From positions 661,001 through 725,000 of the forward strand of contig NZ_OY776414.1 of assembly GCF_963675585.1 (NCBI RefSeq): DNA of 64,000 bases, in the 5' to 3' direction. How positions within the stretch are numbered: position 1 is the first letter of the stretch; every line of letters starts with the position of its first letter. The translations under genes and the position numbers were made by a program. The stretch comes from an uncultured Draconibacterium sp. Lineage in GTDB: Bacteria > Bacteroidota > Bacteroidia > Bacteroidales > Prolixibacteraceae. Positions 48,128-61,174 of the stretch are shown in pieces. Below the pieces are notes generated by a model. That model saw only the letters and a list, made by a program, of their open reading frames with translations. It made no database searches and was not told where the DNA came from.

Positions 48128-49900
48128 ATGAAATTATTTGAAGGACACACTTTTCATATCCCGGTTTTGGGAGTTGGTTATTCGGTTGACACACCAATAA
48201 ATGTGGCGCCTTTTGGTATTTCTTCGGTTATTTCGTTGGTTGATGACGGAACAATTGAAAAAATGCGTGAATTCTACTGTAATAAATTCGATATTCCTTT
48301 TAAAGCGATATCGAAAAAAGTAGAAGATTTTAGGGCCGAACGAATTACCTCGTACCTAAACGTGGTTGAAGAGATTGTGAATAGAAAGGTTGAAGAGATT
48401 AAAAATGCTGCATCGAATGCAGGAGGCGGATTGGAAAAGTATTTTGAAATGCTTCCGGATACATCGGCATTAAAATCGAAATTTAAACTGGCAGACAAAA
48501 GCAGAAGTGCTGCCGACGAACTTTCAAAGTGGGTAAAAGAAAAGTTGCACGTTGGGTCGATTGATGTAAACATCATGACAAAACTTGATCAGGCACATTT
48601 CAAAAATGGGGAGCAATTACCCATCGAACACAACGATGCACATGCTGCATTGCGTGGTTATGCCAATAGTAACTTAAATTCGTCGCTGGTACTGTCGGCC
48701 GGAATGAGTCCGCGTTTGTACAGCTACATCGAAAACTTTAAAGACTTTTTCCCGGATGTAAAAGGGAAAATTAAAAAGAAGATTATTCTTAAAGTAAGCG
48801 ATTTTCGTTCTGCTTTTATTCAGGGTAAAATGTTTGCTGCAAAAGGCTTGTGGGTTTCGGAATACCGAATCGAATCGGGTGTTAACTGTGGCGGCCATGC
48901 TTTTCCAACCGATGGTGTTTTATTCGGGCCAATTCTGGAAGAGTTTAAACAGAACCGCGAAAAGCTATTTACCACCTGTATTGAAGCCTACAAATCTGCA
49001 CTATCAAAAAAAGAAATGCCACAACCTGCCGAAGAACCGGAGCTGAAAGTAACCGCTCAGGGTGGGGTAGGAACAAGTGAAGAACACAGTTTTCTGCTTG
49101 AAGAGTACAACATGGACAGTGTTGGCTGGGCAACTCCTTTTATGTTGGTACCCGAAGTAATTAGCATCGATACCGAAACAATGGATTTGCTGGCAAAGGG
49201 AAAAGAGGCCGACTACTATTTTAGTGGTTTGTCGCCACTTGGCGTTCCGTTTAACAGCATTAAAGGGGCATCGATGAGTGTAAGGCGTTTGCAACTTGCT
49301 AAAGATGGTAAACCCGGAACTCCTTGTACAAAAGGATTTTTACGTTACAATACCGAATTTACCGAGGAGCCAATCTGTACTTCATCGCGTCAGTACCAAA
49401 CATTAAAGTTACAGGAACTGGAAACAATGAACCTGCCGGAAGCTGAATACAAAAAAGCTTACGACAAAATTATTGAACCCGAATGTTTGTGTATTGGTTT
49501 AAGTGTTTCAACCCAACTTTCGAAAGGAATGGCGATGAAAGACGCCGAGAAAGTAACGGTTTGTCCGGGACCAAACCTGGCGTATTTTTCAAAAATTTCT
49601 ACTTTAAAAGAAATGGTTGATCATATTTACGGGCGTATAAATTTGTTGGACAAAGGCTATCGTCCGCACATGTTTATTAAGGAGTTAAATATGTATCTCG
49701 ATATTTTTAAGGAGAAAATGGAAAACTTCCAGAAAAATATGGAAGATGTAAAAGAGAAACGGAATCTGGTAAAATTCAAAAATAACCTGTTCGACGGTAT
49801 TAACTACTACAAAGAACTTTTTACTGAGAAGAAAAAAGAAGTAGTGGATGAACTCGATCGTTTATTGAAAAAATATCCGGAACTGGATACTGAATTGTAA
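48128..49900 (+). CDS. conserved protein of unknown function, possible flavin-enzyme-like barrel
   Basis: The 590-aa soluble protein has no signal peptide. Several Cys occur in conserved-looking contexts (GVNCGGHAFPTDGVLFGP, TPCTKGFLRYN, EECLCIGL-like PECLCIGL and TVCPGPNLAYFS). Glycine-rich VTAQGGVGTSEEHSFLLEEY and the central motifs recall nitronate monooxygenase/FMN-dependent TIM barrels, but I could not confirm this. The C-terminal 100 residues are helical and charged (coiled-coil-like). It is followed by a strong terminator and stands alone. Confidence 0.55.
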   Translation: MKLFEGHTFHIPVLGVGYSVDTPINVAPFGISSVISLVDDGTIEKMREFYCNKFDIPFKAISKKVEDFRAERITSYLNVVEEIVNRKVEEIKNAASNAGGGLEKYFEMLPDTSALKSKFKLADKSRSAADELSKWVKEKLHVGSIDVNIMTKLDQAHFKNGEQLPIEHNDAHAALRGYANSNLNSSLVLSAGMSPRLYSYIENFKDFFPDVKGKIKKKIILKVSDFRSAFIQGKMFAAKGLWVSEYRIESGVNCGGHAFPTDGVLFGPILEEFKQNREKLFTTCIEAYKSALSKKEMPQPAEEPELKVTAQGGVGTSEEHSFLLEEYNMDSVGWATPFMLVPEVISIDTETMDLLAKGKEADYYFSGLSPLGVPFNSIKGASMSVRRLQLAKDGKPGTPCTKGFLRYNTEFTEEPICTSSRQYQTLKLQELETMNLPEAEYKKAYDKIIEPECLCIGLSVSTQLSKGMAMKDAEKVTVCPGPNLAYFSKISTLKEMVDHIYGRINLLDKGYRPHMFIKELNMYLDIFKEKMENFQKNMEDVKEKRNLVKFKNNLFDGINYYKELFTEKKKEVVDELDRLLKKYPELDTEL

Positions 49901-49956: not shown

Positions 49957-49973
49957 TATTCAATATCTATTTA

Positions 49974-50044
49974 AACACCGAAGGTCGGAAAGACACTTCG
50001 GGGTTTGGGGGAAACCTTACGGTGTTTGATAAACCCGAAAGTGA
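49974..50044 (+). repeat. REP-like element, copy A
   Basis: A two-hairpin element starts ACCGAAGGTC...ACACTTCGGGG and ends ACCTTACGGTG...CCCGAAAGTG. It matches the family seen at 56181, 56515, 56984 and 58375. It lies between the terminator and the tracrRNA gene. Confidence 0.75.
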
Positions 50045-50093
50045 TTTCTAACTTTCCAAAGTTTCAAACTTTGAAAAAGGTAAAAAAAAGCAT

Positions 50094-50195
50094 AAAAAAA
50101 CTCCCACCGAGGCGGGAGTACAGGAATTTTTTTCCTTCGGCATATAGCCTTATTGTGATAAGATGTAAAATTGAATTTCTATGTTTTTGAACAGA
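50094..50195 (-). ncRNA. tracrRNA of the type II-C CRISPR system
   Basis: The leftward RNA contains an anti-repeat (50153-50193) that pairs with the CRISPR repeat: TTCAATTTTACATC gives a 14-bp perfect upper stem, a 4-nt bulge follows, and ATCACAAT pairs with the repeat's first six bases. Immediately 3' is ATAAGGCTATATGCCG, a hairpin like the nexus of II-C tracrRNAs, then a GGAAAAAAATTCC hairpin, then a GC-rich terminator (50101-50118) with U7. The start is uncertain. Transcription is divergent from cas9. Confidence 0.88.
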
Positions 50196-50295: not shown

Positions 50296-53200
50296 ATGGC
50301 AAAAATTTTAGGACTTGACCTCGGAACTAACAGCATCGGATGGGCTGTTGTAGACTCAGATACGCAAAAAATATTAAACACAGGAGTACGAATCTTTCCT
50401 GAAGGAGTAGAACCCAAAACAATTGGACAGGGAGATAAAGAGCAATCAAAGAATGCTACGCGCAGAGATAAACGTCAGATGCGCCGACAGTTTTACAGGA
50501 AACGGCTCCGAAAAATTAAGCTGTTACAGGTACTTATACAACAGGAGATGTGTCCATTAACTATAGATGGATTGAGCAAATGGAAAAACTGGAGCCGGAC
50601 AGAAAAAGCAGAAGGTCGAAAATTTCCCGATTCTGAGAAATTTATCGACTGGATAAAATTGAATCCTTATGATCTTCGCGAAAAAGCTCTTGAAGAAGAA
50701 TTGACCTTACATGAACTGGGAAGAATCTTTTATCACCTAATTCAACGTCGAGGATTTCTAAGTAACCGAAAGGGTACAGAAGATTCTACCATATTTACAA
50801 AAGGAAAACCTGATGAAAATATTCTCCCTATTAACGATACAAAGGCAAAGATTGGCAATCGGACTTTGGGAGGATATCTGAACTCAATTGCTTGTAAAGA
50901 TGGAGAACCTTATAAAAACATTACCGATGAGAATGGTAAAGAAATCAGGGTGCGCGGAAGATATACCGTTCGTGATATGTACATTGATGAATTTGAGAAA
51001 ATCTGGTCGGTTCAAAAGGAATTTCTGGAAATAGATAATAAAAAAGTTGAAGCCAAAAGAGCAAGAGAATTACGTGGAACTGTTAACAACAAAAGAAATA
51101 AAAACAAGATTGACCACCTAAAAATAAAATTTGGCGAATCGAATGTTGATATAAAAATTGACGATAAAGGAAAAACAAAAGTTATTACAACAGAACACAT
51201 TTCTTTAAAGGAATTTCTTGCTGGAAGAATTGACCGCATTAAGGATGAGGCAGGAGAAGAAACACTGCAGTTTAAAAGCAACGAAAGTGTTTTATTTTGG
51301 CAGCGCCCTTTACGTTCTCAAAAAGGCTTACTGTCTAACTGTAGGTTTGAAGATAATCTCCCAGTCATTAAGGAAAACGGGGATTTTCTTTTGAAGCCAA
51401 ATGGAGAAAGACAAACAAGGGGCAAGAAGCCGTGCCCGATTTCTCATCCTGAATTTGAATTATTCCGTGCTTACCAGTTTGTTAATAATATTAGCTACGG
51501 TAAAAATCAGAAACTAACGCCTGAACAGAAGAAAGAAGTATTGGCTTTAATTAATAAAAATGATGGGAATTTTGATTTCAGTAAAATACCGGATGCACTT
51601 AAACTGAACTATGAAAAGTTTAATTATGGTGATAAACAAAAAGTGGCAGGAAATCCTACAATTAAGGCATTAAAGCCTCTTTTCTCGGACGATATTTGGG
51701 ACAAACATTACGAAGAAATCTGGCATTGCTTTTATTTTTATGAAGACAATGATAAACTGTTTGAAAAGCTAAAGAAAGATTTTGGATTTAAAAAGGATAT
51801 TGAAGCTGTTAAAAAGGTCAGGATAAAAGTTGGTTATAGCAATGTTTCATTAAAGGCGATTAGAAATATCTTGCCGTTTTTGGAAAAAGGGTATCAGTAT
51901 GACAGGGCAGTAATTTTGGGTGGCGTGAAAAATGCTTTCGGCAAACGTTGGGAATTTTTTAAAGAATTTCATGATAACATCGAAAAGGAAATACTAAGCA
52001 TACTCAGAGAGGAAAACAAGGATGGAGAAGCCATTGAGAAAATTAAAGAGCATTTGGCTTCACCTGTTTTTAATTATGGTTTTGAAAAGGACGATCCGCA
52101 TTTTCTTCATCTGTACCACCATAGCCAGGAAGTAGAAAAACAGGATGAATTAAACTCATTAGTACCGATAGTTGAAAATCTTCGAAATCCAATTGTACAG
52201 CAAGGTTTAAATGAAACAAGACGTTTGGTTAACTACCTAGTACAAAAATATCAGAAAGAGTTTGGTTCAGGTTTTCATTTCGACCAGATAAAAGTGGAAA
52301 TGGGGCGTGAACTGCGTAATAACAAAGATGGCAGACAGGAAATGAGTTTTCGAATTCGCGAAAATGAAGCAAAGAATGATGATGCACGGCAACGTTTGGC
52401 TGAATACGGTTTACAGCCATCTCGGGAAAACATCCAAAAATATTTGATGTTTAAGGAGATTGAAGAGAGGTCAGGGAAAGCACAATGCCCCTATACAGGA
52501 AAGGTAATTTCTGTTTCTGATTTATTGGGGCGTGATAATGCCGTTCAAATCGAACATATTATCCCATTTAGCGTCTCACTTGACGATAGCTTTGGTAATA
52601 AAACGCTTTGTGAAGCTAATTTTAACAGGGAGAAAAGTGAAAAAACACCTTACCTGTTTTACAAAGAAAATCCTGATCCTAATTTATGGGGTGTAACTTC
52701 GTGGGAAGCTGTTGAGGAGCGAGCATTTCGCTTGTTGCCTTATCGGAAAGCAAAGAAGTTTACTGCTAAACGGGAATTTGAAAAATCCGATTTTATTCAA
52801 CGCCAGCTAAACGATAGCAGATACATTGCTAAAAAATCGGTTGAGTTGCTTTCACATATTTGTAACGATGTACGTGTAATGCCTGGGCAGCTTACAGCAG
52901 AACTGCGCCATTTGTGGGGCTTGAATAATATATTGCAGCCTGTACAAAACCTTGGGGAACACACTTTCGATGTTGACGGGGAAAACAGCATCGCACATTA
53001 TGTTGTCACAAATGAAACGGGCGAGGTAGTGAGCATTCACCGGAAACAAAACATCCGACCGTCAACAAATTCTAACGAGATTTTGGTAACAGGTAATGTC
53101 AATAAAAAGAAATTTACATCAAAGTATTTTAAAATTGATATGGAAACGCCGGATTTGCCTGATGGTAAATACTGGGTAAAACTGAACATTGGCGACAATT

Positions 53201-55020
53201 TGCATGTAATTCCAAAATATATCGACAAACCTGAAATCGATGAAAAAAGTATCGTTTTTAAAGGAAATGTTGAAAAGGGATATTTTAAAAATGACACGTA
53301 CGGAAGGATAAAAGCCGATATCGGAGATGGTTCGTATTGGGCGAAGTTTGAGATTCTGAATGTGAAATTTGAGACGCCAGTTAAGGACAATCAACCTAAA
53401 ATCAAACGTAATCAGGTAATGTTATTTGGCAATGTTTTAAACGGCCAATTCAAATGTTTCATCTATCAGTGCGAAACAAATTTGCGCGATGGCAAGTATT
53501 GGATTATACTCGACTTGAATCCTGCCAGTGTAGAGTTTATTCGTTCAGTAAATCCAAAACCAGAAGTTCAGGTAAACGAACTTCTAATAACAGCTACCAT
53601 TGATGAAGATGGGGTATTAAATGCTGATATCGATAAAGAGTATCAAGTGCAAACCGATAGCCCGACAGGTAAATATTATGTGGTAATGGATATAATTACA
53701 CGTGAACCGAAACTTTATAGTATCGAAAATGAGCCGCCGAAGCTGGAAAATGGACAACAGCTGATTGAAGGAAATATTTGGGTCGATAAATATACCGGTG
53801 AAATTAAATTCGACCCAAAAAAGAATCGCGACGACCACCGCCATCATGCCATTGATGCGATTACTATTGCTCTTACCGAGCAAGGATATTTACAGCGTTT
53901 AAGCACGTATAATGCCCAAAGAAAAGAAAAGCAACGACAAAAACTCGATAGTACAGAAAAATTTCCTGAACCGTGGAATGGGTTTACAAACGACGTGGCC
54001 AGGGCGGCTTCTGCAATCCTTATATCACACAAGAAAAACAATAAAACGCTAACGAAAACGAAAAAAGGTTTTGGCGTAAGGGGGCAGTTGCATGAACAAA
54101 CGCTTTATGGTAAAAAAGATTATTGTAAATCTAAAGAATTTACATCGAGAGTATCAATAAAGAAATTGAAGTTTAAAAAAACAAAAGGACAAGCAACATA
54201 TCTTGACGATATTATTGATGCTGGAATTCAAAATGCGATTTATAAAACGATTAAAGAAAACCTTAAAAATGAAGAAGATAAGAGAATAATAGAAGATATT
54301 TTGAAACGATATCACAATATTGGAAATATTAAAACAAAAAAAGCACAGGAACAAGAGGCCAAAGAGTTGAATATATTAAGAACAAAAATTAACTCCCAGG
54401 TTGAAAAAATTTTACAGGAAGAAAATTTCTTTTTGAAGAATGAGGGGAATCGATATAAAAAATTAAAAAAAGAGAGTATTGAAGAGAGGCATCCCGTTCC
54501 AATAAAAAAAGTGAAGGTTTTAAAAGTTTTAGGACACGGTGGACATTTAAAAGAATTAAGTTCATATTCAAAGAAAAAAAATCGGGTAGTTAAAGGGAAT
54601 CAGTATGTTAATCCTGGAAATAATCATCATATATTGATTTATTTGAATTCTGATGGAAAATTATCTCAGGAAGCTATTCAACTTTGGGCAGTAATTGAAC
54701 GAAAAAGTCAAGGTGATGAAATTTATCAGTTGCCAGAAGATGGAGTATCGATTGTAACCACCCTTGAAACCAATGATATGTTTATTCTTGGATTAAGTAA
54801 TGATGAGTTCGAGTCAAATATAAATAATCGGGCATTTTTAAGTCGATATTTATATAGAGTTCAGAATATTTCTGATATGTATTATAATTTTAGGTTCCAT
54901 CTTGCTTCAACTTTAGATAAGAAAGAAGAGTGGATTTATATCCAAAGCCTTAGTGCATGGGAAAAGTTGAATCCAATCAAAGTAAAAATTGATATCTTAG
55001 GGAATATTAAAAAGGTTTAA
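50296..55020 (+). CDS. cas9: CRISPR-associated endonuclease Cas9, type II-C, with long HNH-RuvC-III insertion
   Basis: The 1574-aa nuclease contains RuvC-I (LGLDLGTNSIGWAVVD, D8), an Arg-rich bridge helix (about 52-80), RuvC-II (QIKVEMGRE, E668), HNH (QIEHIIPFS, H754; N768) and RuvC-III (DDHRHHAIDAI, H1184 and D1187). All catalytic residues are present. RGQLHEQTLYG in the C-terminal part is a usual II-C PAM-domain entry motif. Residues about 880-1175, between HNH/L2 and RuvC-III, hold four to five copies of a 55-59-residue beta motif (GNV....F...DGKYW) at G933, G990, G1045, about 1100 and G1159. Type II-C enzymes usually lack this. Absence of csn2 and cas4 fits subtype II-C. Confidence 0.96.
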   Translation: MAKILGLDLGTNSIGWAVVDSDTQKILNTGVRIFPEGVEPKTIGQGDKEQSKNATRRDKRQMRRQFYRKRLRKIKLLQVLIQQEMCPLTIDGLSKWKNWSRTEKAEGRKFPDSEKFIDWIKLNPYDLREKALEEELTLHELGRIFYHLIQRRGFLSNRKGTEDSTIFTKGKPDENILPINDTKAKIGNRTLGGYLNSIACKDGEPYKNITDENGKEIRVRGRYTVRDMYIDEFEKIWSVQKEFLEIDNKKVEAKRARELRGTVNNKRNKNKIDHLKIKFGESNVDIKIDDKGKTKVITTEHISLKEFLAGRIDRIKDEAGEETLQFKSNESVLFWQRPLRSQKGLLSNCRFEDNLPVIKENGDFLLKPNGERQTRGKKPCPISHPEFELFRAYQFVNNISYGKNQKLTPEQKKEVLALINKNDGNFDFSKIPDALKLNYEKFNYGDKQKVAGNPTIKALKPLFSDDIWDKHYEEIWHCFYFYEDNDKLFEKLKKDFGFKKDIEAVKKVRIKVGYSNVSLKAIRNILPFLEKGYQYDRAVILGGVKNAFGKRWEFFKEFHDNIEKEILSILREENKDGEAIEKIKEHLASPVFNYGFEKDDPHFLHLYHHSQEVEKQDELNSLVPIVENLRNPIVQQGLNETRRLVNYLVQKYQKEFGSGFHFDQIKVEMGRELRNNKDGRQEMSFRIRENEAKNDDARQRLAEYGLQPSRENIQKYLMFKEIEERSGKAQCPYTGKVISVSDLLGRDNAVQIEHIIPFSVSLDDSFGNKTLCEANFNREKSEKTPYLFYKENPDPNLWGVTSWEAVEERAFRLLPYRKAKKFTAKREFEKSDFIQRQLNDSRYIAKKSVELLSHICNDVRVMPGQLTAELRHLWGLNNILQPVQNLGEHTFDVDGENSIAHYVVTNETGEVVSIHRKQNIRPSTNSNEILVTGNVNKKKFTSKYFKIDMETPDLPDGKYWVKLNIGDNLHVIPKYIDKPEIDEKSIVFKGNVEKGYFKNDTYGRIKADIGDGSYWAKFEILNVKFETPVKDNQPKIKRNQVMLFGNVLNGQFKCFIYQCETNLRDGKYWIILDLNPASVEFIRSVNPKPEVQVNELLITATIDEDGVLNADIDKEYQVQTDSPTGKYYVVMDIITREPKLYSIENEPPKLENGQQLIEGNIWVDKYTGEIKFDPKKNRDDHRHHAIDAITIALTEQGYLQRLSTYNAQRKEKQRQKLDSTEKFPEPWNGFTNDVARAASAILISHKKNNKTLTKTKKGFGVRGQLHEQTLYGKKDYCKSKEFTSRVSIKKLKFKKTKGQATYLDDIIDAGIQNAIYKTIKENLKNEEDKRIIEDILKRYHNIGNIKTKKAQEQEAKELNILRTKINSQVEKILQEENFFLKNEGNRYKKLKKESIEERHPVPIKKVKVLKVLGHGGHLKELSSYSKKKNRVVKGNQYVNPGNNHHILIYLNSDGKLSQEAIQLWAVIERKSQGDEIYQLPEDGVSIVTTLETNDMFILGLSNDEFESNINNRAFLSRYLYRVQNISDMYYNFRFHLASTLDKKEEWIYIQSLSAWEKLNPIKVKIDILGNIKKV

Positions 55021-56180: not shown

Positions 56181-56275
56181 AGACACCCGAAGGTCGAAAA
56201 GACACTTCGGGGTCTTGCCTCTTGAAAATAATTTAGAACAAACCTTTCGGTGTCTGCCAGACCCGAAAGTGTTTA
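56181..56275 (+). repeat. REP-like element, copy B
   Basis: It starts ACACCCGAAGGTCG...GACACTTCGGGG, has a 29-bp middle, then ACCTTTCGGTGTCTGCC and AGACCCGAAAGTG. Each half can fold as a hairpin. It lies directly upstream of the RAYT gene. Confidence 0.8.
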
Positions 56276-56293
56276 ATAACTAAAATAAATACA

Positions 56294-56962
56294 ATGAAAA
56301 CCACCCCGCTTGAATACGGCCATTTTTATCATATTTACAATCGTGGTATAAATGGCTGTAACCTGTTTCAGGAGAATGAAAACTACGACTATTTTCTTTA
56401 CTTGTATGATAAATATATTTCTTCTGTGGCCGAAACGTATGCATGGGTATTAATGCGGAATCATTTTCATTTGCTGGTTCGAATAAAAACTGTTCGAGAA
56501 ATACCGTTTATTGAAACACCCGAAGGTTTAAAAAATACTTCGGGGTTGGTCTCAAACCTTTCGGTGTCTGCCAGACCCGAAAGTGTTTATAAAAGGTATA
56601 AACCGGTCAACCAATTTAGTCACCTTTTTAACGCCTACACCAAAGCAATAAACAAACGTTACAACCGAACCGGCAGTTTATTCGAACATCCCTTTCGCAG
56701 AAAACAGGTTGTTTCAAACCATCAGTTAAAATACTTGGTATACTACATTCATCACAATCCTATTCATCATGGTTTTTGCGAACATTATCTCGACTATCCA
56801 TGGAGCTCTTACTTAACCGTTGTTTCGCCAAAAGAAACAAAATTGAGCAGAACTGAAGTGATACGTTGGTTTGATGATAAATCGAACTTTGAAAAATTTC
56901 ATTCGCAGCAAGAAATAAGGAAATTCGATGAATTGAATATTGATTTTTCATGTGATGGATGA
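56294..56962 (+). CDS. REP-associated tyrosine transposase (RAYT, Y1/HUH family)
   Basis: The 222-aa protein has the IS200-like fold: EYGHFYHIYNRGINGCNLF, the HUH motif RNHFHLLVRI and the catalytic Tyr region LVYYIHHNPIHHGF. RAYTs nick single-stranded DNA at REP hairpins. REP copies lie on both sides (56181, 56984). In addition residues about 74-99 (TPEGLKNTSGL...SARPESVYK) are encoded by a REP copy inside the gene, in a loop between the HUH motif and the helix starting KPVNQFSHLF, without breaking the frame. It separates the 218-aa gene from cas1. Confidence 0.9.
   Translation: MKTTPLEYGHFYHIYNRGINGCNLFQENENYDYFLYLYDKYISSVAETYAWVLMRNHFHLLVRIKTVREIPFIETPEGLKNTSGLVSNLSVSARPESVYKRYKPVNQFSHLFNAYTKAINKRYNRTGSLFEHPFRRKQVVSNHQLKYLVYYIHHNPIHHGFCEHYLDYPWSSYLTVVSPKETKLSRTEVIRWFDDKSNFEKFHSQQEIRKFDELNIDFSCDG
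56515..56590 (+). repeat. REP-like element, copy C, inside the RAYT coding sequence
   Basis: It shows the same order as copies B and D: ACACCCGAAGGTTT...TACTTCGGGG and ACCTTTCGGTGTCTGCC...CCCGAAAGTGTTT. It encodes in-frame amino acids of the transposase, so its length is compatible with the reading frame. Confidence 0.85.
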
Positions 56963-56983
56963 AAAATAATTTTAAGTGAAGCC

Positions 56984-57058
56984 AGACACCCGAAGGTCTT
57001 CGAGACACTTCGGGGCCAGGAAATAACCTTTCAGAGTCTGCAAGACCTGAAAGTGTTG
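56984..57058 (+). repeat. REP-like element, copy D
   Basis: ACACCCGAAGGTCTTCGAG...ACACTTCGGGG and ACCTTTCAGAGTCTG...GACCTGAAAGTG. It lies between the RAYT stop and the cas1 start (24 bp before cas1). Confidence 0.8.
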
Positions 57059-57081
57059 AACAAACCAATTAAGTTAAAACC

Positions 57082-57972
57082 ATGATAAAACGTACTCTCT
57101 TTTTCTCCAATCCCTATCACCTGTCTTTAAAAAACAAACAACTTGAAGTGGCAGAACCGCACGGAATGACGATGAAAACCATTCCGGTGGAAGACATTGG
57201 TTTTATAGTACTCGATCATCCGCAAATATCGTTTACCATGAAACTGGTGGAACAGTTAAACGAATACAACGTGGCCACCGTTTTTTGCGACAGCAAACAC
57301 ATGCCTTCGTCCATGTTGTTACCACTCGATGCACATCACATTCAGAGCGAGTTGTTCAGGGCACAGGTGTCGGCTTCCGAACCCTTAAAAAAGAACCTTT
57401 GGAAACAAACCATTGAAGCCAAAGTAAAAAATCAGGCCCGATTGCTTGATAAATGCGGAAAGAATAGCCTTCAACTTCGAAGTATTGCTAAAACCATAAA
57501 AAGCGGCGACAGCGATAACCGCGAAGGTTTTGCAGCCCGTTTGTATTGGATGGCACTGTTTGGTAAAACATTTATACGCGATCGGTTTGGCGAACCCCCC
57601 AATGCTTTTCTTAATTATGGATACATTCTTTTGCGTTCGGCTGTGGCGCGTGCCATTGCCGGATCGGGACTACTGGCTACTTTGGGTATTTTTCACCGCA
57701 ACCGCTACAATGCCTTTTGTTTGGCCGACGACATTATGGAACCTTACCGTCCCTATGTTGATGAAATTGCATACAGTTTAAATCAGAAGTATCCCGGAAC
57801 TCTGGTGCTGGATAAGGAACATAAAGCCGAATTGCTCGGGCTAATGGCAGCCGATGTAAAAATAGGAGAGAACAAACGCCCTTTAATGCTGGCTTTGTCG
57901 CAAACCACGGCCTCGCTCTCCCGCTGTTTCTCGGGCGAACAACGTAAAATTGAATATCCCGTTTTTGAATAA
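57082..57972 (+). CDS. cas1: CRISPR-associated integrase Cas1 (type II)
   Basis: The 296-aa protein has metal-binding residues E148 (NREGFAARLYW), H205 (GIFHRNRYN) and D216/D217 with E220 (LADDIMEPYRP). Length and motifs match type II Cas1. With Cas2 it integrates new spacers. A perfect 13-bp inverted repeat lies between its stop and cas2. Confidence 0.96.
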   Translation: MIKRTLFFSNPYHLSLKNKQLEVAEPHGMTMKTIPVEDIGFIVLDHPQISFTMKLVEQLNEYNVATVFCDSKHMPSSMLLPLDAHHIQSELFRAQVSASEPLKKNLWKQTIEAKVKNQARLLDKCGKNSLQLRSIAKTIKSGDSDNREGFAARLYWMALFGKTFIRDRFGEPPNAFLNYGYILLRSAVARAIAGSGLLATLGIFHRNRYNAFCLADDIMEPYRPYVDEIAYSLNQKYPGTLVLDKEHKAELLGLMAADVKIGENKRPLMLALSQTTASLSRCFSGEQRKIEYPVFE

Positions 57973-58589: not shown

Positions 58590-61174
58590 GTTGTGGTTTG
58601 ATGTAAAATTGAAAAGATATTCAACCCAAGAGTCGATGCATCTTCAGATGTTGTGGTTTGATGTAAAATTGAAAAGATATTCAACAGATAAAGAATTGGG
58701 CAAATTACCGAGTGTGTTGTGGTTTGATGTAAAATGTTATGGATTCCGGGAGTTGATGAAATTCGTTGTGGTTTGATGTAAAATTGAAAAGATATTCAAC
58801 TGGTACTGCTTGCGATGCTGCTACTCCTTCGTTGTGGTTTGATGTAAAATTGAAAAGATATTCAACTATCAGCGATAATTAATTGAGCCTTGTGTAGTTG
58901 TGGTTTGATGTAAAATTGAAAAGATATTCAACACCATTGAGAATAGGGTAATCCATTCCCTGGTTGTGGTTTGATGTAAAATTGAAAAGATATTCAACCT
59001 CAGTTGGTAGAGCAGTCGCTTTTAGGTGTTGTGGTTTGATGTAAAATTGAAAAGATATTCAACGTTAATGTTCATATCAGGATCATCATTCCAGTTGTGG
59101 TTTGATGTAAAATTGAAAAGATATTCAACTTATCTATTACGAACTTGTTACACTCTACAGTTGTGGTTTGATGTAAAATTGAAAAGATATTCAACGGATA
59201 AAGAGCAAGCGCATGTGGCGCACCGTTGTGGTTTGATGTAAAATTGAAAAGATATTCAACACTGTTGAGGATATGTATTGGCTTTGTCAGGTTGTGGTTT
59301 GATGTAAAATTGAAAAGATATTCAACAATACAAAAATCCGTCATCGCCTTCCATGTGTTGTGGTTTGATGTAAAATTGAAAAGATATTCAACAAATACCA
59401 TATTCGGTTAATGGTTAATCGTGTTGTGGTTTGATGTAAAATTGAAAAGATATTCAACCAGGTTGTTTATGGCCCTGCACTGTATTATGTTGTGGTTTGA
59501 TGTAAAATTGAAAAGATATTCAACCATCATTTTATCGAACGACGCGATTAATGGTTGTGGTTTGATGTAAAATTGAAAAGATATTCAACTTATTTGCTCA
59601 AGTGTATTTTGTTGCTGTTGTTGTGGTTTGATGTAAAATTGAAAAGATATTCAACTTGTTGAAGATTGGAGTAATACCATTATTGGTTGTGGTTTGATGT
59701 AAAATTGAAAAGATATTCAACGGTAACTAATTCAGGGAGAGATGTGCCTACGTTGTGGTTTGATGTAAAATTGAAAAGATATTCAACAGATAACGGCGAG
59801 GAGTTATGGTCGCCTTTGTTGTGGTTTGATGTAAAATTGAAAAGATATTCAACAACGTGGATGAGCCTTCCGTCACTGCACACGTTGTGGTTTGATGTAA
59901 AATTGAAAAGATATTCAACAACTTGTCTTAACAAGTGACGTCTTTTATTGTTGTGGTTTGATGTAAAATTGAAAAGATATTCAACCTTTTCTTCATTTGC
60001 TTGGTCTAGGATTGCGTTGTGGTTTGATGTAAAATTGAAAAGATATTCAACAGCAACAGAAAGGCAACGATTAACTAAGTTGTTGTGGTTTGATGTAAAA
60101 TTGAAAAGATATTCAACAATGGAAATAGTTTAGCTAACAGTTTTCTTGTTGTGGTTTGATGTAAAATTGAAAAGATATTCAACGAAAAGAAAATTGTAAG
60201 CATTGGGGGCGTCGTTGTGGTTTGATGTAAAATTGAAAAGATATTCAACTGTAAGAGGTACCGATACCACCACAGTAACGTTGTGGTTTGATGTAAAATT
60301 GAAAAGATATTCAACGGCTACTGGCAATTTCATTAATAGGCTTTTGTTGTGGTTTGATGTAAAATTGAAAAGATATTCAACTCTTATCGGTAAGAAGGTA
60401 TGCTCTGAAACGTTGTGGTTTGATGTAAAATTGAAAAGATATTCAACGAGCCAAAATCAAGTTCGGATGCCGGAACCGTTGTGGTTTGATGTAAAATTGA
60501 AAAGATATTCAACACAGCATCACCAAAGTGTGTAGCTTCCTCTGTTGTGGTTTGATGTAAAATTGAAAAGATATTCAACCAATTCACGTAATATCAAACC
60601 ATCTTTTATGTTGTGGTTTGATGTAAAATTGAAAAGATATTCAACAACTTTTAGATGTGTAAGTTTTTTATCTTCGTTGTGGTTTGATGTAAAATTGAAA
60701 AGATATTCAACTAAAATGCCTATATATTCAATGTCATCGTTGTTGTGGTTTGATGTAAAATTGAAAAGATATTCAACGGCAATACTAATATAAGCGGATG
60801 GGACACTGTTGTGGTTTGATGTAAAATTGAAAAGATATTCAACTAAATCCATAATTGCAATTATTTGTTACAAAGTTGTGGTTTGATGTAAAATTGAAAA
60901 GATATTCAACTTAACTGAAGTAAATAAGCAACTTTACAACGTTGTGGTTTGATGTAAAATTGAAAAGATATTCAACATTGTTAACGGGTAATGTTTCATT
61001 GTCTGGGTTGTGGTTTGATGTAAAATTGAAAAGATATTCAACGCGTTAGCATTTTCACACAGTTCAAGTTCTGTTGTGGTTTGATGTAAAATTGAAAAGA
61101 TATTCAACTGTTTCGGGCTTCGGGTGTTGGTGCCTGGTGTTGTGGTTTGATGTAAAATTGAAAAGATATTCAAC
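58590..61174 (+). CRISPR. CRISPR array, 40 repeats of 36 bp, 39 spacers
   Basis: The 36-bp repeat starts GTTGTGGTTTGATG and ends AAGATATTCAAC, with GTTG/CAAC termini. Spacers are 29-31 bp, except the first (24 bp). Repeat 3 (58716-58735) is cut to its first 20 bases. All other copies look identical. Pairing with the tracrRNA fixes crRNA direction as rightward. Beyond the last repeat a 33-bp spacer-like segment leads to a degenerate repeat at 61208-61245 containing GAAATTGAAAAGATAG. ORFs translating the repeat (LWFDVKLKRYST) are artefacts. Confidence 0.98.
58999..59027 (+). other. CRISPR spacer 7 resembling a tRNA D-arm
   Basis: The 29-base spacer starts CTCAGTTGGTAGAGCA, the near-universal D-arm of bacterial tRNAs, and continues into a plausible anticodon arm (GTCGCTTTTAGG). 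Its protospacer is thus probably a tRNA gene of a phage, a plasmid or the host. Confidence 0.7.

Follow-up and report, generated by a model that had tools for sequence, protein, structure and literature searches.

The window, a stretch of 64,000 nucleotides from a contig of an uncultured Draconibacterium sp., contains a type II-C CRISPR-Cas locus composed of cas9, cas1, cas2 and a CRISPR array (Table 1), without csn2 or cas4 among the three neighbours checked (at 48128, 55510 and 56294, against NCBIfam, Pfam and PADLOC). The Cas9 has all four nuclease motifs: RuvC-I GLDLGT, RuvC-II VEMGRE, HNH IEHIIP and RuvC-III HHAIDA. By the features tested, the Cas9 itself is of a known type; what is new is the domain inserted into it.

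Table 1. Features of the CRISPR-Cas locus and of the window Cas9 (window coordinates; residues are those of Cas9).
Feature	Position	Strand	Basis or detail
cas9, type II-C, 1574 aa	50296..55020	+	TIGR01865, E 1.3e-155
HNH core, residues 731-786	52486..52653	+	Pfam HNH_4, E 3.6e-20
RuvC-III stretch QLTAELRHLWGLNN, residues 865-878, immediately ahead of the insertion point	52888..52929	+	phmmer alignments to solved Cas9s; helix in AF2 model
Insert leader, residues 882-895	52939..52980	+	boundary from insert-free relatives; alignment
Unit 1, residues 896-952 (HYVV...GNV)	52981..53151	+	profile similarity to units 2-5, probability 95.0-98.2
Unit 2, residues 953-1007 (GKYW...GNV)	53152..53316	+	hhalign unit-unit profiles
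Unit 3, residues 1008-1061 (GSYW...GNV)	53317..53478	+	hhalign unit-unit profiles
Unit 4, residues 1062-1120 (GKYW...ATI)	53479..53655	+	hhalign unit-unit profiles
Unit 5, residues 1121-1174 (GKYY...GNI)	53656..53817	+	hhalign unit-unit profiles
RuvC-III motif KKNRDDHRHHAIDA, residues 1175-1188	53818..53859	+	Pfam RuvC_III, best stretch 1169-1250
cas1 (type II)	57082..57972	+	TIGR03639, E 6.4e-89
cas2, 112 aa	58025..58363	+	TIGR01573, E 3.9e-20, over cut-off; Pfam CRISPR_Cas2, E 1e-18
CRISPR array	58590..61174		39 exact 36-bp repeats

Directly upstream of cas9 lies a single candidate tracrRNA anti-repeat (window 50153-50175, minus-strand reading), which agrees with the CRISPR repeat at 20 of 23 bases. 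At the array start (58590-58765), spacers 1 and 2 are 24 and 79 nt long and the remaining ones 29-31; perhaps this end of the array has been worn by deletion, or a repeat has been lost. Dispersed elements of about 30-70 bp, found in four places (49972-50060 and 56181-57072), surround an ORF (56294-56962) similar to REP-associated tyrosine transposases (NF047646, E 1.4e-12, under its cut-off), and in 7 of 25 loci ORFs related to it adjoin the cas genes. The ORF upstream of cas9 (48128-49900, 590 residues) drew no match from NCBIfam, Pfam or PADLOC at the cut-offs applied.

The extra block in the window Cas9 comprises residues 882-1174 (window 52939-53817). Its boundary is given by the relative G174, which has no insert: the match to the window Cas9 ends at residue 881 and restarts at 1175, with 9 nt in between. 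Behind the leader there are five complete units of 54-59 residues each, and the end of unit 5 directly abuts the restart of RuvC-III. Two kinds of anchor recur: the YW type at Y902, 959, 1014, 1068 and 1127, of which the first is divergent (HYVV at 901) and the others belong to GKYW 957, GSYW 1012, GKYW 1066 and GKYY 1125; and the GNV type, with GNV at 933, 990 and 1045, ATI at 1100 and GNI at 1159. The block is flanked by WGLNN at 874 and KNRDDHRHHAID at 1176, and the consensus pooled from 115 units is about dGkYWavldid.e..ef.p..NekPe..enqilleG.V.kG.Fksd. A preliminary description of this DNA had already placed tandem beta-unit repeats ahead of the RuvC-III motif, and these are real; its motif positions hold to within two residues (WGLNN had been put at 876 and ATI at 1101), but its count of four to five units, the last of them partial, has to be replaced, the divergent first anchor having been missed.

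The five units are almost certainly homologous, beyond chance, as judged from their profiles. For hhalign, unit profiles were built from 23 orthologues, with 200 column-shuffled profiles as controls: all 10 unit pairs gave probabilities of 95.0-98.7% (E 3.7e-8 to 3.1e-16), whereas the top-scoring control reached a score of 16.0 and a probability of 6.8%, and 0 of 200 exceeded a probability of 50. At the DNA level, no tandem repeat at the unit period is present in the insert region, which fits old duplications; the only repeat there is one 21-base row with an 11-nt period.

The insert lies inside RuvC-III, not at the HNH hinge. The QLTAELRHLWGLNN stretch is helical over most of its length in the AlphaFold2 (AF2) model, and phmmer alignments with solved Cas9s cross residues 865-878 and restart at RuvC-III with no insert; from the insert end to H1184 there are 10 residues. 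The Cas9s of PDB 8hnt and 9ar4, which we take to be of the Nme/Geo type, share the RuvC-III helix and the HHAxDA motif with the window Cas9, but in them WGL or W leads straight to the motif (aligned residue 706 then 708, and 710 then 710). Because these alignments run from the LRxxW helix to HHAxDA almost without a gap, the insert belongs inside RuvC-III. It had at first been regarded as the hinge that moves HNH. In PMC7673026, AGFIK/RQLVE at 919 of SpCas9 is the last HNH-labelled site ahead of RuvC-III; its counterpart in the window Cas9 is FIQRQL (residues 833-838), which marks the HNH/RuvC-III junction and hence the place of the hinge. The insert thus starts about 46 residues into RuvC-III and is not that hinge.

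Other Cas9s lack the block at this site. CbCas9 (PDB 8iyq, 8wmh), presumably from Chryseobacterium, is large like the window Cas9 (1442 residues, solved) and matches it at 330-717 and in HNH/RuvC, but has only about 50 residues, without GNV/GKYW units, from WGL to RIDHRHHALDA. Three short Bacteroidota Cas9s (L068, L069 and L070, with open frames of 1054-1136 aa, that of L070 possibly missing its start at a contig end) are 41-43% identical to the window Cas9 over about residues 313-881 and have the same RuvC-II, HNH and RuvC-III motifs, but carry no insert: the LRxxW helix and HHAxDA are 18 residues apart in L068 and L069 and 19 in L070, compared with 308 in the window Cas9. As first supposed, the insertion is absent from most Cas9s compared here, being passed over in the PDB Cas9s and in G174, and it is not one known continuous domain kept at the same length in most type II-C Cas9s. 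No published description of the insert was found in a search judged by title or start of abstract, with most subscription papers outside its scope.

The insert is predicted to be a run of repeated beta units that folds on its own. The AF2 model of the insert alone (nine sequences, 313 residues modelled) has a mean pLDDT of 84.6 and a pTM of 0.70, with a pLDDT of at least 90 for 168 of the 313 residues; across the five models the mean pLDDT was 84.6, 84.4, 84.3, 82.9 and 58.8. Its secondary structure is all beta bar a 3-residue helical turn in the C-terminal flank, with about four strands per unit, the first two of which merge in units 2-4 into one stretch of 15-18 residues. The model of residues 619-1574 (mean pLDDT 58.3, pTM 0.34) is unreliable outside the insert, and a fold search with it was uninformative. 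With the insert model, Foldseek gave no match at E <= 0.001 in 350,542 PDB chains and none in the viral library BFVD. Among the best 50 PDB hits listed, the top probability was 0.07 and none was significant. The insert has five units of about four strands each, as a five-bladed beta-propeller would, but no propeller was named among these hits.

Sequence libraries gave a similar picture. Pfam has no match over cut-off for the window insert, and over 12 insert members its best was Por_Secre_tail (E 0.0011, in 2 of 12); the best NCBIfam match (E 0.02) fails its cut-off, PADLOC has no match, and no PDB sequence matches (E 0.43 with the insert profile). Since no significant sequence or Foldseek match was obtained, the insert fold is unmatched among the libraries searched. 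The sole library match with E <0.001 is phrog_32621 (function not assigned), in 5 of the 12 members (best 8.1e-5), and in the window insert it covers 12 residues around the GKYW motif (E 2e-4).

All 23 insert-bearing Cas9s that we compared have five units, so that the variation in unit number envisaged among Bacteroidota Cas9s was not seen. In these proteins 115 of 115 unit segments are present, 53-74 residues each, and the spacing from the LRxxW helix to HHAxDA is 306-335 residues. The nuclease motif patterns of RuvC-III and HNH occur in all 23, that of RuvC-II in 21 and that of RuvC-I in 19; of the four without the RuvC-I pattern, L052 and L053 lack the N-terminus. In a sample of the phylum, 67 of 395 genomes had Cas9 matches, and among the matches listed only those of G000 and G296 span the insert; 57 of 149 relatives had matches, with the insert in G000, G458, G427, G454, G408 and G452, and an N-terminal Cas9 fragment only in G433. 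The insert profile matched 13 of the 393 genomes of the window's order: 11 with five-unit Cas9s, the window Cas9 among them, G896 (L104), whose contig ends within the last unit, and G967 (L106), rejected as a carrier because its match (E 2.2e-4) lies in a protein resembling a histidine kinase. Neither of these two entered the unit counts, nor did L060 (match at a contig end) or L038/L065 (the G433 fragment). In the order of G296 (judged to be Flavobacteriales), 2 of 395 genomes matched, and a scan of one genome per species over 84,980 species, which detects close relatives only, gave nine loci, all Bacteroidota, including Draconibacterium, Mariniphaga, Bizionia saleffrena and Flavobacterium branchiophilum. 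When the 393 order genomes were searched with only residues 313-881, the catalytic part (E <= 1e-55), 12 came up, the same 11 and G518; the insert is therefore the rule in this Cas9 clade. A viral origin was considered and rejected: L032 has only a short common peptide, in an unrelated ORF, and three later scans of IMG/VR found no carrier, nor did searches of phages and plasmids.

We built a tree of 44 Cas9s by a quick method with the insert left out (L045 and L047 were dropped, their anchor not being found; L052 and L053 lack the N-terminus, and L074, L078 and L105 have long branches). On it the 23 five-unit Cas9s form one clade (SH-aLRT 99), with L066 from G518 as its sister (SH-aLRT 95) and the zero-unit L068-L073 next; L068, L069 and L070 fall with the five-unit group in a larger clade (SH-aLRT 100). 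All six zero-unit Cas9s have the RuvC-II, HNH and RuvC-III motifs (the RuvC-I pattern in 2 of 6), so the arm is dispensable for Cas9s in general. L066 (1209 aa) has a unit-sized linker at the same site: 77 residues from helix to motif versus 18 in L068, one unit's worth extra. As a one-unit ancestor this linker was rejected, its similarity to the units not being significant: the unit HMMs score it no better than shuffles (best 2.8 bits, unit 3 model; top shuffle 5.4, with 272 of 300 shuffles scored by that model). A series of zero, one and five units through L066 would thus be suggestive only. A separate clade of eight Bacteroidota Cas9s (L022, L023, L024, L027, L040, L041, L042 and L044) has a stretch of 47-55 residues at that point of RuvC-III; the five tested against the unit models gave no unit-like score, and the RuvC-III loop may accordingly have gained insertions repeatedly.

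The units themselves largely group by position on a unit tree (U3 and U4 in 23/23, U5 in 22/23, U2 in 20/23 and U1 in 11/23), which points to old duplications. Cross-position identity is similar within one protein (mean 21.9%) and between proteins (20.7%), and hence recent duplication or homogenisation is not generally indicated, although single within-protein pairs reach 49%. From these comparisons it is nearly certain that the beta unit had reached five copies by the time the clade began to diversify. The insert dN/dS values, usable in 2 of 7 pairs (insert dS being >1 or undefined in the other five), are 0.12 for L052/L053 and 0.21 for L036/L064, and on these ratios we judge the insert to be under purifying selection. 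In 6 of 7 pairs the RuvC-II/HNH part is better conserved than the insert (83% versus 62% identity in L056/L057, for example), and only in L052/L053 does the insert lead (92.1% versus 89.7%). The L052/L053 inserts are 92% identical, while RuvC-III onward is only 65% identical (dS 0.31 versus 1.09), a pattern that replacement of the C-terminal, PAM-reading part would give.

The net charge of the insert is negative in 23 of 23 proteins (-1 to -14), and the remainder of each protein is net positive; units 1-3 of the window insert are slightly positive (+2, +1 and +1). In the 25 loci, cas1 is present in 18, cas2 in 14 and the REP-transposase-like gene in the seven mentioned above. No other neighbour gene cluster is common to more than three of them (four of the 25 have Cas9s without five units, and the flanks are often short), a result that weighs against a partner encoded in the locus.

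We regard the part of our account that is read from sequence and evolution (five homologous units, fixed copy number, a single clade, old duplications, purifying selection, acidity and nuclease motifs) as nearly certain. The best explanation as a whole, a lineage-specific accessory beta-repeat domain in RuvC-III acting as an arm in cis, is a good possibility, though short of probable. The domain, five beta units of about 55 residues each set just ahead of the catalytic HHAxDA, would form an arm of fixed length beside the opening through which the non-target strand enters the RuvC site, and would tune the capture or cleavage of that strand, or a step after, rather than swing HNH. This mechanism is our preferred reading, and a tentative one: net acidity, the lack of a locus-wide partner gene and the fixed five units rank it first. 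Five units in diverged proteins suggest a fixed reach or shape, and their constant number, with no further conserved flank gene, fits a role in cis. The insertion point adjoins residues that contact the non-target strand in a SpCas9 model (PMC5680257); a gap-free count back from H1184, which presumes zero gap from the insert end to HHAxDA, would map the SpCas9 sites to 1175 and 1177, 1 and 3 residues past the insert end. Against a role in cis, the constant copy number could instead come from the needs of stable folding or from a partner in trans whose shape is fixed, and the lower conservation of the insert fits a surface-exposed or conflict-driven role equally.

Recruitment in trans, in which the beta array docks another protein (a second Cas9, Cas1-Cas2, RNase III or a host factor) and so adds an interference or adaptation step, is somewhat unlikely. 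The insert is an acidic, faster-evolving repeat domain that folds separately in the AF2 prediction, and domains of this kind are usual at protein-protein interfaces; one Cas9 reportedly has PcrIIC1 as its protein partner, and we take that Cas9 to be the large CbCas9 of the PDB entries. Yet past cas1, cas2 and the REP-transposase-like gene, the loci offer no candidate common to more than three of the 25. Distinctly unlikely is an arm that binds nucleic acid, as had also been proposed, holding the displaced non-target strand, the PAM-distal duplex or the tracrRNA. Its position beside the SpCas9-model contacts in PMC5680257 would suit such an arm, and the charge of units 1-3 makes a local patch possible; net acidity in 23 of 23, however, against positive remainders, speaks against an arm that mainly binds nucleic acid, and in the searches run no family or fold that binds nucleic acid was matched significantly. 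Slightly more unlikely still, in our view, is that the insert serves as structural filler or as a decoy, tolerated at the surface, where it would stabilise the protein or keep anti-CRISPRs from docking, with no role in the cleavage cycle: the zero-unit L068-L073 exist, and Cas9 accepts engineered domains at RuvC-III sites 1010 and 1029 (PMC7673026), but five units are retained in frame in 23 diverged orthologues, with dN/dS well under 1 where measurable. That the repeats arose by chance, as their low identity within one protein might suggest, or that the insert is an assembly artefact, has practically no chance of being right, given the shuffled controls and the same insert in independently assembled genomes, including the isolates Bizionia saleffrena and Flavobacterium branchiophilum.

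Cas9 has been postulated to have evolved by domain accretion on a RuvC core (PMC8476515). The insert is a natural addition to Cas9 by tandem duplication, adjoining the path of the non-target strand and with outgroups close by that lack it, and it lets the effect of an added RuvC-III arm on strand cleavage, fidelity and partner binding be tested by clean deletion; the RuvC-III site also offers a natural insertion point for a large domain. Our tentative view is that the insert may represent a beta-repeat fold not described before, so far found only inside Cas9 and amplified five-fold in a Bacteroidota clade, which would either regulate non-target-strand cleavage from within the protein or act as a partner-docking arm.
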